Source of the DNA: an uncultured bacterium
GTDB taxonomy: Bacteria; Verrucomicrobiota; Kiritimatiellia; RFP12; UBA1067
DNA: 33,337 nt
NCBI GenBank assembly: GCA_902763655.1
Contig: CACWSW010000009.1
Location: forward strand, 1 to 33,337
Direction: 5' to 3'
Under the pieces are notes generated by a model. The model was given only the letters and a program-made list of their open reading frames with translations, did no database searches and had not been told where the DNA came from. Below are positions 1 to 30,169 of this stretch, piece by piece. The position numbers were made by a program, and so were the translations under genes. Positions within the stretch are counted from its first letter, which is position 1. Each line of letters begins with the position of its first letter.

Positions 1-2399
1 CCCTGCCGCTCGTAAGCGACATCGACGACAAGAACGGCGCCTCCGTGGCGATCGCGTACCGTGCGCCTGCCGACCCCTCCGCGCCGGGGATTGCGCGCGA
101 TGCGATACTCGACCTGACGAAATATTTGAAAGACGATGGCATGTTGGATGCGGTCGCGCAGGAGCGCGACCCTCCCGGTTTGGCGGTCGCAACAAGTTGC
201 GACCCTCCCGAGGCGGGGTGTTGGCGCATCTTGCGCGTGGGCTACACGACCTCCGGCAAGATGTGTGCGCCGGCGCCGGGGAACGTGCGCGGGCTGGAGT
301 GCGACAAGCTCTCGAAGAAGGGACTCGACGCCCACTGGCCGCACATGCCGCACAAGATGATCAACGCGCCCGGCGGGAAGGGGACCGTGGCCGTGGCGAT
401 CATCGACTCGTGGGAGGTCGGCGGACAGAACTGGACCGAGGCGTTTCCCGAGGAGTTCAAGCGGCGGCGCGGCTACGACATCCGTCTGTGGCTGCCCGCG
501 ATGGCGGGCTACACGGTGGGCACGGCGGGCGAGACGGCGAAGTTCCTCTTCGACGTGCAGCGGACGGTGTCCGACCTCATGGCGGAGAACTACTACGACT
601 ACTTCGCCGAACTCTGCCATCGCGAAGGCGTGAAGACCGCCACGGAGAGCTACGGCGGTCCGTTCGACTACCTGCGCTGCTTCGCGTCGACGGACATCCC
701 CACGGGCGAGTTCTGGCTCGGACGTTCGCCGCACGGTTCGCCGCGCATCGCCGCCTCCGCCGGCCACCTGCACGGCCGGAAGCAGATCGCGGCCGAGGCG
801 TTCACCACCGAGGCGAAGGAGGGACGCTGGCAGATCACGCCGCACGAGCTGCGCGTGAACGGCGACCGCGGCTGGCTCGACGGCATCTCGCAGCTGGTGT
901 ACCACTCCTACCTGCAGCAGCCGTTCATGAACGTGCAGCCCGGCTTCTCGCTCGACCGCCACGGCACGCAGTTCAACCGTCACACCACCTGGTGGCCGGA
1001 GGGGAAGTGGTGGGCGGAATACGTCCACCGCGGACAGTTCCTGCTCCAGAGCGGCGAGCCGAAGGCGGACGTGCTGGTCCTTGCTGGCGACAGCGCGCCC
1101 AACCTGCACGAATACCAGGGCGAGCTGGTGGGCGCGGGGTACAACTACGACCGATGCGGCGTGGCGGATATTCAGCGGTTGATTGCGGTCGCAACAAGTT
1201 GCGACCCTCCCGGTTTGGCGGTCGCGCTGGAGCGCGACCCTCCCGGGGGGTGCGGCGTGGCGATGCCGGGGCGGTTGCCGTATGAGGTGCTGTGGCTGGG
1301 TGAGGAGCGGTACCTCACCTGCGCGACGTTGCGCAAGGTGAAGGCGTTGCTGGACGCAGGTGCGCGCGTGGCGGGTGAGCGGCCGAAGGACACGCCGTCG
1401 CTCGCGGACGATCCGGCGGAGTGGCATAGACTCGTTGATACCATCTGGGGCGGGAAGTATCCGAATCTCAAGGCGGCCAACTCCTCGCTGGCGGCGGTGC
1501 GCGCGTTCGGCGTGCGCCCGCCGGTGGAATCGGGCGGCGCGCTCAAGGCGCTACGGCGCGTGATCGAGGGGCGCGACTTCTACTTTGTCGTGAACGGAAA
1601 GACGAATGCGTTTGACGGTACCGTTTCGTTTAAGGGCGTGGGGCATCCCGAGCGGTGGGACGCGAAGAGCGGGAAGATCGAGCCGTTGCCGTGGCTGGAG
1701 GATGAGACAGGGCGCGTGAAGACGCGGGTGATGTTGCGTCCGGACGAATCGATGTTCGTGTCGTTTCGCGAGGCGAGGGGAGGTGAGAAGCCGTTGCGGG
1801 CGCAACAAGTTGCGCCCCTCCCGCATGGGGAGCCGCCGTCTCGGCGGCTCATGGATATTTCGACAGAATGGGCGGCCACCTCCTTCACGGGCAAGAACGC
1901 GCCGGACGCGCCGCGCCTGTTCCCGATGCTGTTGGGATGGAACATGTCCCCGGACGAGAAGCTCAGGTATTTCGCGGGACGCGCCATGTACGAAAAGCGG
2001 ATTGACCTTTCCAACGTCTCGGAACCCTGCGAGCTGGATCTCGGCGACGTGCGCGAGCTCGCGAACGTGTGGGTGGACAGGACGTTCCTTGGCTGCCTGT
2101 GGGAGGCACCGTACCGAGTGGCGTTGCCGAAGTCCGTGCTGGGCAAGAAGGTGACGCTGCGCGTGGAGGTGGTCAACACGTGGCCGAACCGTTTGATTGG
2201 CGACGCGATCGCGCGCAAGCGCGGCGCGGCGGAGCCGAAGAGCAAGTATGGCGTGCCGCAGTGGGTGCTGGACGACAAGCCGGACTCCGGCACGGGCATC
2301 TATACGTGGATGAACTGGATGAAGGGCTGGACGGCGGAAGACAAGCTGCGCCCGGCCGGTCTCCTCGGACCAGTCCGTCTGCTGGGCAATGGAAAATAG
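1..2399 (+). CDS. GH106-type alpha-L-rhamnosidase-like glycoside hydrolase, 5' end missing
   Basis: The reading frame is open from base 3 to the TAG ending at 2399, so the gene begins upstream of the window; the GTG at 45 is only the first internal start-like codon. The visible ~799 residues resemble GH106 rhamnosidases: a W-RILR-GYT-SGK block followed by GLECDKLSKKGLDAHW, a YYDYFAELCHREGVKTATESYGGP segment with a likely catalytic-site Glu (split here as YYDYF, then TESYGGP), an LPYEVLWL-type Rossmann-like strand, and a C-terminal jelly-roll sugar-binding region (DLGDVRELANVWV, then RVEVVNTWPN-RLIGD). Family members usually exceed 900 residues, consistent with a missing N-terminus; signal peptide not visible. 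Three in-frame REP-like hairpin insertions interrupt it (152-210, 1187-1245, 1798-1850), each in a probable surface loop. The likely role is cleavage of rhamnose from plant or pectic glycans, inferred from family. Substrate is unproven. Confidence 0.8.
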   Translation, partial: LPLVSDIDDKNGASVAIAYRAPADPSAPGIARDAILDLTKYLKDDGMLDAVAQERDPPGLAVATSCDPPEAGCWRILRVGYTTSGKMCAPAPGNVRGLECDKLSKKGLDAHWPHMPHKMINAPGGKGTVAVAIIDSWEVGGQNWTEAFPEEFKRRRGYDIRLWLPAMAGYTVGTAGETAKFLFDVQRTVSDLMAENYYDYFAELCHREGVKTATESYGGPFDYLRCFASTDIPTGEFWLGRSPHGSPRIAASAGHLHGRKQIAAEAFTTEAKEGRWQITPHELRVNGDRGWLDGISQLVYHSYLQQPFMNVQPGFSLDRHGTQFNRHTTWWPEGKWWAEYVHRGQFLLQSGEPKADVLVLAGDSAPNLHEYQGELVGAGYNYDRCGVADIQRLIAVATSCDPPGLAVALERDPPGGCGVAMPGRLPYEVLWLGEERYLTCATLRKVKALLDAGARVAGERPKDTPSLADDPAEWHRLVDTIWGGKYPNLKAANSSLAAVRAFGVRPPVESGGALKALRRVIEGRDFYFVVNGKTNAFDGTVSFKGVGHPERWDAKSGKIEPLPWLEDETGRVKTRVMLRPDESMFVSFREARGGEKPLRAQQVAPLPHGEPPSRRLMDISTEWAATSFTGKNAPDAPRLFPMLLGWNMSPDEKLRYFAGRAMYEKRIDLSNVSEPCELDLGDVRELANVWVDRTFLGCLWEAPYRVALPKSVLGKKVTLRVEVVNTWPNRLIGDAIARKRGAAEPKSKYGVPQWVLDDKPDSGTGIYTWMNWMKGWTAEDKLRPAGLLGPVRLLGNGK
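152..210. repeat. REP-like hairpin pair inside the GH106-type gene
   Basis: Two direct units: stem GGTCGCGC, loop AGGA, stem GCGCGACC (152-171) followed by CTCCCG, a GTTTGGC linker, then stem GGTCGCAAC, loop AA, stem GTTGCGACC (185-204) followed by CTCCCG. Read on the minus strand each unit is a GGAG-headed palindrome, the layout of REP elements moved by REP-associated tyrosine transposases. The block is translated in frame as QERDPPGLAVATSCDPPE. Confidence 0.85.
1187..1245. repeat. REP-like hairpin pair inside the GH106-type gene, units in swapped order
   Basis: Same two unit types as at 152-210 and the same GTTTGGC linker, but in the opposite order: the GGTCGCAAC hairpin first (1187-1206), then the GGTCGCGC-TGGA-GCGCGACC hairpin (1220-1239), each followed by CTCCCG. 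It is translated in frame as VATSCDPPGLAVALERDPPG between two conserved structural segments of the enzyme. Confidence 0.85.
1798..1850. repeat. REP-like hairpins, facing pair, inside the GH106-type gene
   Basis: Stem GGGCGCAAC, loop AA, stem GTTGCGCCC (1798-1817) then CTCCCG. After a short gap comes GGGGAG leading into a second hairpin, GAGCCGCCG-TCT-CGGCGGCTC (1830-1850), in the opposite orientation. The first stem differs from the 185-204 copy by matched changes on both sides (T to G and A to C), so pairing is kept. Translated in frame (RAQQVAPLPHGEPPSRRL). Confidence 0.75.
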
Positions 2400-6643: not shown

Positions 6644-6659
6644 TAACGGTTGTTCCTAT

Positions 6660-6675
6660 TGGCATGGGATTTGCT
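6660..6675 (+). promoter_or_regulatory. sigma-54-type promoter for the HU-fusion gene
   Basis: TGGCATGGGATTTGCT: a strong match to the sigma-54 consensus, GG at 6661-6662 and GC at 6673-6674 with 10 bases between. The predicted start near 6686 leaves a short leader holding the GGGAGAAG ribosome site and excludes the earlier in-frame start at 6650. Confidence 0.75.
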
Positions 6676-6712
6676 TCAATCAATGCTGGCAATTGGACAA
6701 TCTGGGAGAAGA

Positions 6713-8401
6713 ATGATGGAAGAGGCACCAAAGAAGCGGGCATATACAAAGAGTCGGTTGATAAAGGAACTGGCATTTCGGGCTGGGATTTCCCAGCGGC
6801 AGTCGCGTGCGGCGCTAGAGGCGATCATTGAGATCGCGTACCGTGAGGCGCGCACGAACTTTTTCATACTGCCTGGACTTTGCAAGTTTGACGTAGCGCG
6901 ACGGGCGCCACGAACGGTCCGCAATCCCATGACTGGCGAGAAGCTGGTGCTCCCGGAGCGTGACGCTCTGCGCGTAGTGCTGTCGAAGCGCGCGAAGGAA
7001 ACGGTCGCCCCTCGCGTGACACCTTTGACCGAGGCGGCGTATGCGGCGCTTCAAGCCGAGAAGGCCGCCGCCGAGGAGGCGGCTCGCAAGGCGGCTGAAG
7101 AGGCAGCTCGCAAGACCGCCGAGGAAGAGGCGGCCCGTCTGGCTGCAGAGGAGGCTGCTCGTAAGGCGGCCGAGGAGGAAGCGGCGCGCAGGGCGGCGGA
7201 AGAGGCCGCGCGGAAAGCTGCAGAGGAAGCCGCTCGCAAGGCGGCCGAGGAAGCTGCGCGCAAGGCGGCGGAAGAGGCTGCCCGCAAGGCTGCCGAGGAA
7301 GAAGCTGCTCGTCAGGCTGCGATCTTGGCTGCGCAAAAGGCTGCCGAGGAAGAGGCGGCCCGCAAGGCGGCCGAGGAGGCCGCGCGCAAGGCGGCTGAAG
7401 ATGCCGCCCGGCGAGCGGCTGAAGAGGAGGCTGCGCGTAAAGCGGCGGAGGAGGCGGCACGGAAGGCGGCTGAGGAAGAGGCGGCACGGAAGGCGGCCGA
7501 GGAAGCCGCTCGCTTGGCGGCGGAGGAGGCGGCACGGAGGGCCGCCGAAGAAGAGGCGGCCCGTCAGGCGGCCGAGGAAGAGGCTCGCCAGGCGGCTGCG
7601 GAAGCGGCGCGGAAGGCTGCCGAAGAGGCGGCGCGGAGGGCTGCCGAGGAAGAGGCGGCGCGGAAGGCGGCCGAGGAGGCGGCGCGGAAGGCGGCCGAAG
7701 AAGAGGCGGCGCGGAAGGCGGCCGAGGAGGCGGCGCGTCTCGCAGCGGAAGAAGAGGCACGTCGAGCGGCCGAAGAAGCCGCCCGGCGCGAGGCGGAAGA
7801 GGCGTCCAGGCGGTTGGCCGAAGAGGCTGCACGGAAGGTGGCGGAGGCTGAGGCGGCCCGCAAGGCCGCCGAGGAAGAGGCCGCCAGAAAGGCTGCGGAA
7901 GAGGAAGCGACCCGAAAGGCTGCCGAAGAGGCCGCACGAAAAGCTGCTGAGGAAGAAGCCGCGCGGAAGGCTGCCGAGGAAGAGGCGGCCAGGAAGGCCG
8001 CAGAGGCGCAGGAACCTGATGCCGACGGATTCGTCGAGACCGCCATCACCGGCGATAATGCCATTTCGTTCAAGTGCACCACGTGCGGGCAGGAGATCAT
8101 TGCGCCCGGCGAAGCGGTAGGCTACGAGGCCGAATGTCCGGCTTGCGGAGCAATCCTGCTTGTGCCGTCGGCCTCAGAGCCAGGAACTACATATGCTAGC
8201 GACGGCAGCAGCGAGCAGAAGGAAGTTGTCTCAGTTCAGGAAATCGAGGACCTCAACCCGGCCCAGCTCAAGAGCCGCACCATCCGCATCGACGCGCTTA
8301 TGTTCGACGAGGAGGTCAACACGACACCTTCTGTGGACGACAAGCTCTCCGATGCGATGAAGAGCCGCACCATGCGGATCGATCTGCCAGACGAGTTCTG
8401 A
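6713..8401 (+). CDS. HU/IHF-like domain fused to a long Ala/Glu/Lys/Arg coiled coil and a zinc ribbon
   Basis: 562 residues from ATG 6713 (or 6716), preceded by GGGAGAAG. Residues ~14-100 look like a bacterial HU/IHF DNA-binding domain ([26 protein letters not shown], then [12 protein letters not shown]). Residues ~118-432 are repeats of the AARKAAEEE type, predicted to form a very long charged helix like that of TolA or histone-H1-like tails. A zinc ribbon follows with Cys455, 458, 475 and 478 (CTTC, then CPAC), then an acidic tail with two SRT(I/M)RID motifs (~520 and ~549). Codons vary along the repeats while the pattern is kept, which argues for a real protein. It may organise the nucleoid or bridge DNA to something else, but the function is unknown. 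It is controlled by a sigma-54-type promoter shared with pilus genes. Confidence 0.85.
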
Positions 8402-29479: not shown

Positions 29480-30169
29480 ATGACAGATTTTGGATTTTAT
29501 TTGGTGATGACCAATCCCGTGGTCGGCTACGCCCGTTGCGCGGAGGCGGCCGTCAAGGCAGGGGTGCGCATAATCCAGCTGCGCATGAAGCACGCGGAGC
29601 GCGCGGACATCCTGCGCGAGGCGCGGGAGGTCCGGCGCGTGACGCACGGCACGGACACGCTATTCATCGTGAACGACGATCCTGCAATCGCGGCAGAGGT
29701 GGAGGCGGACGGCGTACACGTGGGACAGGACGACATGCCTGTCGCCGAAGTGCGGCAGAAGTTCCCGTCGCTCAAGATCGTGGGCTTGTCAACGCATAAC
29801 CCGGCACAGGCCCGTGCCGCCGCCGGGACGGCTGCTCTCCATACGGGAGGGCCGCGCTTGGTTCCGGCACCCAATACGGGAGGGCCGCGCTCCTGCGCGG
29901 CCGCAATCCCCGACTACATCGGTGTCGGCCCCGTCTACGCAACCCCTACGAAGGACATCCCTGATCCGACGCTCGGCCTCGCCACGATGGGCGAAATGAT
30001 CGCCTCTGTGCCGTTCCCGGCTGTCGCCATCGGCGGCATCGACGCGGCACGCCTGCCAGACGTGATCGCCGCCGGCGCACGCAACTTCGCTGTTGTCCGC
30101 GCCGTATGCCAGAGCGCCGATCCCTACTCTGCGATAGTCGGCCTGCAGCGCATTGCCAACCTGGCGTAG
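29480..30169 (+). CDS. thiE: thiamine phosphate synthase with an in-frame repeat insertion
   Basis: 229 residues from ATG 29480. An in-frame GTG at 29426 lies within the palindromic repeat and is rejected. ThiE joins HMP-pyrophosphate and thiazole phosphate. Family motifs in order: IQLRMK, FIVNDDPAIA with ADGVHVGQDDM, GLSTHNPAQA, DYIGVGPVYATPTK and AIGGI. Between ARAAAG and DYIGVGP there are roughly 25 extra residues (HTGGPRLVPAPNTGGPRS and neighbours) encoded by two REP-like units. They would sit in a surface loop near, but not in, the phosphate-binding site, so activity may survive. It is the only thiamine gene here; the stop is five bases from the convergent oxidoreductase stop. Confidence 0.9.
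   Translation: MTDFGFYLVMTNPVVGYARCAEAAVKAGVRIIQLRMKHAERADILREAREVRRVTHGTDTLFIVNDDPAIAAEVEADGVHVGQDDMPVAEVRQKFPSLKIVGLSTHNPAQARAAAGTAALHTGGPRLVPAPNTGGPRSCAAAIPDYIGVGPVYATPTKDIPDPTLGLATMGEMIASVPFPAVAIGGIDAARLPDVIAAGARNFAVVRAVCQSADPYSAIVGLQRIANLA
29841..29902. repeat. two REP-like units inside thiE
   Basis: Both units begin ATACGGGAGGGCCGCGC (29841 and 29874). The second is a perfect hairpin, GGCCGCGC-TCCT-GCGCGGCC (29883-29902); the first has lost its right stem. They are the same family as in the GH106-type gene, in the opposite orientation, with the GGAG head at the left. Another frame of this unit reads REGRAPARP. Confidence 0.85.

Follow-up and report, generated by a model that had tools for sequence, protein, structure and literature searches.

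Short REP-like palindromes in frame within protein-coding genes of a Kiritimatiellia gut bacterium

Palindromic units in two conserved genes

The window, which is the whole stretch of DNA analyzed (33,337 nt), is contig C9 of a 4.5 Mb assembly (G000, the source genome) that is 92% complete and comprises 465 contigs. Palindromic units are carried by two of its genes, a GH106 alpha-L-rhamnosidase-like gene cut at its 5' end by the contig end and thiE, encoding thiamine phosphate synthase (Table 1). A reading of the sequence alone had placed five hairpins, with a CTCCCG tail or its inverse, inside the intact GH106 frame. All five were recovered, on the forward strand and distributed over three sites, while the element taken for the inverse proved to be a different hairpin, GAGCCGCCGTCTCGGCGGCTC, lying tail-to-tail with the fifth unit. 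The GTTTGGC linker was confirmed to be the same in the first two blocks, with the GC[A/T]GGAGC and AACAAGTT units in swapped order. The second hairpin type (AGCCGCCGTCTCGGCGGCT, often then CTCCCCAT) frequently shares an in-frame block with the main unit, joined to it, and was seen in the window and near positions 1575 and 1985 of stretch L291. In the genome sample described below, a pattern close to it gave 10 strand-wise matches (about five distinct copies), six of them no more than 80 nt from a main unit. Elsewhere in the window, an ORF at 6650–8401 has a long Ala/Glu/Arg-rich repeat region (AARKAAEEE...) mid-way.

Table 1. Host genes and palindromic elements in the window
Feature	Position	Strand	Remark
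GH106 alpha-L-rhamnosidase-like ORF, 5' end cut by contig end	3–2399	+	Pfam PF17132, E 3e-101
GH106 site 1, unit 1, GGTCGCGCAGGAGCGCGACC + CTCCCG	152–177	+	reads VAQERDPP
GH106 site 1, unit 2, GGTCGCAACAAGTTGCGACC + CTCCCG	185–210	+	reads VATSCDPP; 33-nt gain in window species
GH106 site 2, unit 1, AACAAGTT type	1187–1212	+	
GH106 site 2, unit 2, GCTGGAGC type	1220–1245	+	GTTTGGC linker as in site 1
GH106 site 3 unit, GGGCGCAACAAGTTGCGCCC + CTCCCG	1798–1823	+	different codon phase (RAQQVAPLP)
Second hairpin type, GAGCCGCCGTCTCGGCGGCTC	1830–1850	.	tail-to-tail with site 3 unit; fold z-score of the pair −4.2
thiE, thiamine phosphate synthase	29480–30169	+	Pfam PF02581, E 2.6e-51
Decayed third thiE hairpin, GCCGCCGGGACGGC..CTCTCC	29819–29840	+	perfect in G007
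Decayed thiE unit, CTCCCG tail kept, pairing lost	29844–29871	-	33 nt longer than in G007/UBA3624
Intact thiE unit, GGCCGCGCAGGAGCGCGGCC + CTCCCG	29877–29902	-	reads TGGPRSCAA; missing from relatives' ThiE

The GH106 gene was compared with orthologues of 62–88% identity, and its dN/dS against four of them is 0.18–0.25. At site 1, G006, G003, G004, and G014 each have one unit or a degenerate copy, and G021, G049, and G001 have none; the second unit is the 33-nt length difference of the window gene to G006 and G004. Site 2 is empty in G014, G004, G021, G049, and G001; G006 carries a single unit there, the window gene two, and G003 about four to five. At the exact position of site 3, GC-type units (GCAGCAGC and GCAGGAGC) occur in G006 and G003, the stem variant differing among the three species. 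The GH106 structure model has low-confidence segments that take in the three blocks (residues 56–69, 400–414, and 601–612), together with others elsewhere. In the G003 orthologue (L068, around 533–538), a change of frame near query residues 715–733 is either a frameshift or an assembly error.

The thiE gene, absent from the earlier reading, carries one intact and two decayed units, and its dN/dS is 0.08–0.11. The ThiE model matches 1xi3 and 2tps, and its best solved match is a thiamine phosphate synthase. The named relatives in the ThiE comparison are Kiritimatiellia and Verrucomicrobia MAGs, mostly from the ruminant gut. In thiE, G003 has one unit and G007 has two; the insert is absent from ThiE homologues of other genera and phyla. 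AlphaFold gives pLDDT mostly above 90 for the barrel and below 50 for residues 119–138, so that the insert is modelled as a disordered loop in a confident barrel.

The unit and its distribution

The unit has the form C-GG[N]CGC-N8-GCG[N']CC-CTCCC-G, an 8-bp hairpin followed by a CTCCCG tail, in which stem changes are compensated. With its conserved edge bases it measures 27 nt, so gains add whole codons. In single units, the edge C at −1 is present in 96% and the edge G at +1 in 88%, and these two are the only bases that mark the flanks. A G at −2 is found in 69%. A search of 404 kb detected 84 units, all with CTCCC as the search required and 71 with the full CTCCCG (CGGGAG on the other strand), against zero or one for six control tails. 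A sample of 61 stretches (1.14 Mb), fetched by place and partly picked because they bore units, yielded 159 units in 91 blocks of one to six units, and nine control tails gave 0–7. In the whole 4.5 Mb genome, 387 pattern matches with at most one mismatch were counted, compared with one for the reversed control. The matched stem changes first remarked on in the GH106 gene are borne out by stem covariation. At 243 sites chosen without using the variable stem pairs, pairs 3, 7, and 8 are Watson-Crick in 230, 238, and 241 sites (95–99%), against shuffled means of 96, 119, and 103 (40–49%). Frequent stem types are AACAAGTT, AATAAATT, AGCAAGCT, and GC[ATG]GGAGC, which combine with T-A, A-T, C-G, or G-C at pair 3.

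In-frame units are not special to the GH106 gene, as 70 of the 91 sample blocks lie inside predicted genes, 17 between genes, and 4 at edges. These assignments are predictions of a purpose-built dicodon gene caller that ignored the unit bases. Random positions in the sample fall inside genes in 86% of cases and between them in 5%; per kb, units are thus about three times scarcer in genes, which nevertheless contain most copies. A stricter test of the flanking codons, which loses some true cases including two of the window's own four blocks, placed 46 of the 91 blocks in frame and found none frameshifted or stop-bearing. In G006, 40 of 54 blocks lie inside genes. Pfam matches were obtained for 18 of the 20 host ORFs that were scanned, in 17 cases above the curated cut-off; they include GH92, GH20, PfkB, Era, a PFL-like enzyme, and an ABC ATPase. 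The insert is located near the protein middle in two transporters and in the linker of a BioW-BioF fusion. Era is generally an essential gene, and presumably so here, where the source genome has one full-length copy, with the insert; the Era loop is too variable between species for an exact empty site to be defined. A third palindrome, AACGGGCG...CGCCCGTT, is also present in the sample of the source genome, and Era of G009, G011, and G013 (L327, L329, and L325) has TTGVSPV/TTGILPV motifs in the loop that holds the unit here; this palindrome and these motifs may be one element.

Orthologous sites hold zero, one, two, or about four to five units, and in 43 of 43 pairwise comparisons across genes, not all of them independent, the length difference is a multiple of three. 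The presence/absence polymorphism at orthologous sites (GH106 site 2 and ThiE) is between species only, and no clean young empty site with exact target boundaries was found among the orthologue comparisons. Within the genus, pattern matches range from 2 (G010, about background) to 580 (G006). In G023, of another genus, most units are of stem type GAC.G.GC, and 39 of 50 blocks in the fetched stretches are intergenic. Its A[AG].AA..T units, few in number, lie for the most part in genes and in the usual phase (7 of 11). In the same genus (g9; G023, L271–L290), the hairpin occurs in arrays whose period is about 79, 97, or 120 nt. Related hairpins with a CTCCAG rather than a CTCCCG tail were seen in G030, G033, and G024, from other genera of the family.

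A RAYT gene with a GGAG-type REP alongside had been suggested as something to look for, but no conserved association of this kind emerged. The only Y1 transposase match of the source genome (92% complete) is associated with its own unrelated palindrome, not the main unit; this gene (L031 1390–2560, contig C278) has a AAAACAGGTC[AT]GACCTGTTTT-like palindrome on both sides. None of 30 matched loci of relatives has adjoining units. A RAYT-like gene of G003 (L317 2073–3314), weakly matching NF047646 below the cut-off, has units on both sides, within about 200 nt downstream and 350 nt upstream. These lie in direct orientation, and the related genes of other genomes are without nearby units. In the genomes examined, no RAYT gene flanked by two inverted cognate REPs was found, which for the source genome, at 92% completeness, does not prove absence. 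The RAYT-like gene of G003 (locus L317 2073–3674) also encodes KARRSDMG peptides repeated within its product, and CTCCGATACAGGCATGCCGATGCTGC repeats form an array upstream of it.

Reading frame and origin of the inserts

A single codon phase is common to 92 of 114 in-gene units and 58 of 70 blocks (P = 2e-17), or to 45 of 55 when counted by gene. Both orientations enter genes at this one phase, NCG...GNN, encoding A-[VD]-A-xxx-[DV]-P-P or, from the other strand, G-G-[STAP]-xxx-A-[TSA]. The second species, G006, has 60 of 72 units in the preferred phase (32 of 40 blocks), a replication that is only partly independent because some of its sites are orthologous to those of the source genome. Away from gene ends, the bias strengthens (72 of 80 and 50 of 58 units). 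Stop codons can be ruled out as the cause, since the GC-type variants, stop-free in every frame, are equally biased when taken alone (34 of 41 and 52 of 63). The codon phase of the target site is also insufficient, as the three codon positions have almost equal shares of GC dinucleotides (33/33/35%), and neither TGC nor GGC prefers the position needed. Frame-by-frame codon usage of the unit fails to predict the preferred phase; its other frames are often, though not all, Arg-rich. As neither stops nor the phase of GC targets explain the bias, selection on the encoded peptide is the leading reason for it. Peptide selection alone, however, does not obviously account for the shared entry phase of both orientations or for the rarity of frame opp-0, whose charge is close to neutral.

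The units are best read as non-autonomous REP-like mobile palindromes that are retained in genes as short translated inserts, which is probable on the comparative sequence evidence. Since the repeats lie in genes in frame without breaking them, they encode short extra loops in conserved enzymes. The palindrome would spread through the genome by transposition, possibly driven by a putative HUH/RAYT-like enzyme, and copies at one site may then multiply or swap stem variants by slippage or inter-repeat recombination. Selection on the peptide would remove most insertions in the other two frames, leaving small turn-forming loops that may be tolerated as neutral in the host proteins. The sequence-only reading had likewise favored tolerated loop insertion, and the empty or differently filled orthologue sites, length differences in multiples of three, predicted disorder, and purifying selection bear it out. 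It is further conceivable, though tentative, that the element is adapted to coding DNA, its main habitat, by having a unit of whole codons and one phase for both orientations, either through the insertion mechanism or through peptides that are benign from both strands.

A rival account of the entry phase is an insertion mechanism bound to one codon position, for instance beside an in-frame target; the frame lock would then be mechanistic and not due to selection. A phase that is the same for both orientations belongs to the site, not to the encoded peptide, and the codon usage and charge of the unit predict it incompletely. Such a mechanism is nevertheless unlikely, given that GC, the best conserved flank, is even over codon positions, TGC and GGC do no better, and the edge bases can equally well be part of the element; to our knowledge, no mechanism reads codon phase in DNA. 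Domesticated inserts would be kept for a benefit to protein or mRNA, as new loops, for surface variation, or as hairpins that tune translation or mRNA decay, or else for useful variation by in-frame repeat gain and loss. They would fit the fast turnover, always in frame, of unit numbers and stem types between orthologues. They would also fit the seven or eight of eight stem pairs kept in all in-gene units detected, although the search required as much. The functions of the host genes are unrelated, many sites are empty in sister species, and an RNA role would need no codon phase; the density of units in genes, about one third of the intergenic density per kb, is that of tolerated and not of sought insertion. 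Domestication is thus considered improbable.

Repeats promote misassembly, the source genome is a MAG of 465 contigs, and a few phase-0/1 blocks lie near ORF ends or in short ORFs, so chimeric assembly or spurious ORFs had to be considered. This explanation is largely contradicted by the existing evidence and very improbable: in-frame units recur at the same orthologous places in separately assembled MAGs, most scanned hosts belong to Pfam families, flanks are under purifying selection, and the phase bias is stronger away from ORF ends. The view that the residues are ancestral to the enzymes, with palindromes arising by coincidence of codon usage, deserves almost no credence. The unit or degenerate copy at GH106 site 1 is common to five species of the genus, as ancestry would have it. 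The sequence-only reading had named the same residues in homologues from unrelated phyla as the finding that would assign them to the enzyme; the distant GH106 orthologues (G021, G049, and G001) lack those of sites 1 and 2, and ThiE of other phyla lacks the insert. The same DNA also turns up between genes and, in either orientation, in unrelated genes, and its stems covary. The system is one in which the addition of protein loops by mobile DNA can be measured. With hundreds of copies that lie mainly in genes, one of them in single-copy Era, and sister sites of zero to about five units, the frames, peptides, and positions in which insertion is tolerated are directly accessible. Repeat-derived segments in proteins of such MAGs can also mislead alignments and family models.

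Comparison with known palindromic repeats

Like the GTAG/CGTC REPs, which are palindromes of 20–40 bp in hundreds of copies, single, dimeric, or grouped, with a tag at one end and covarying stems (PMC3733652), the present units are short tagged hairpins, but their tag is CTCCCG. The surveyed REPs are mostly intergenic (PMC3733652), while most copies here are in genes (70 of 91 blocks in G000 and 40 of 54 in G006), unlike in G023. Many REPs of Opitutus terrae, a member of Verrucomicrobiota in the wide sense, lie in ORFs (PMC3733652). In-frame palindromes are known from Rickettsia, as stated earlier, but intragenic REPs also occur outside it. No report of a codon-phase preference was found in the O. 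terrae survey (PMC3733652), and the open-access papers yielded nothing relevant on palindromes in Kiritimatiellia. RAYT-associated REPs and REPINs share the head plus palindrome, the inverted pairs, and the arrays, and the GGGAG core is similar to that of some Pseudomonas REPs (GTGGGAG...); RAYT genes elsewhere are flanked by two inverted cognate REPs, with no conserved equivalent found here (PMC2817692, PMC3116915). In the 107-bp form of Correia/NEMIS elements, a stop-free subfamily is fused to ORFs and another subfamily is intergenic (PMC2229807). The stem subfamilies here also differ in location, between G000/G006 and G023, but the mainly intergenic stem type is open in frame as well, so stops are not the explanation for its location.

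A close parallel is the Rickettsia RPE and Wolbachia WPE, palindromic repeats found in frame in conserved but otherwise unrelated genes, where they are modelled as exposed insertions (PMC3767692, PMC10969869, PMC2229807); an RPE-bearing guanylate kinase has been reported to be translated and active (PMC2229807). For the present hosts, the signs of translated and active products are indirect, namely purifying selection and the single-copy Era. As in those genomes, the palindromes here lie in frame in conserved protein genes. According to the RPE descriptions, RPE-1/2/3 are set apart by their length, about 100–150 bp against the 27-nt unit. They also differ in their tag, CGTC against CTCCCG (CGGGAG), and in phylum, and RPE hosts are obligate intracellular, whereas the present hosts are gut bacteria with 4–6 Mb genomes. 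So far, in-frame palindromes have mostly been regarded as peculiar to Rickettsia and Wolbachia, and the present units are an independent case in gut bacteria. As far as open-access papers show, the tag, the host lineage, the predominance in genes, the phase shared by both orientations, and the graded unit numbers at orthologous sites are new.
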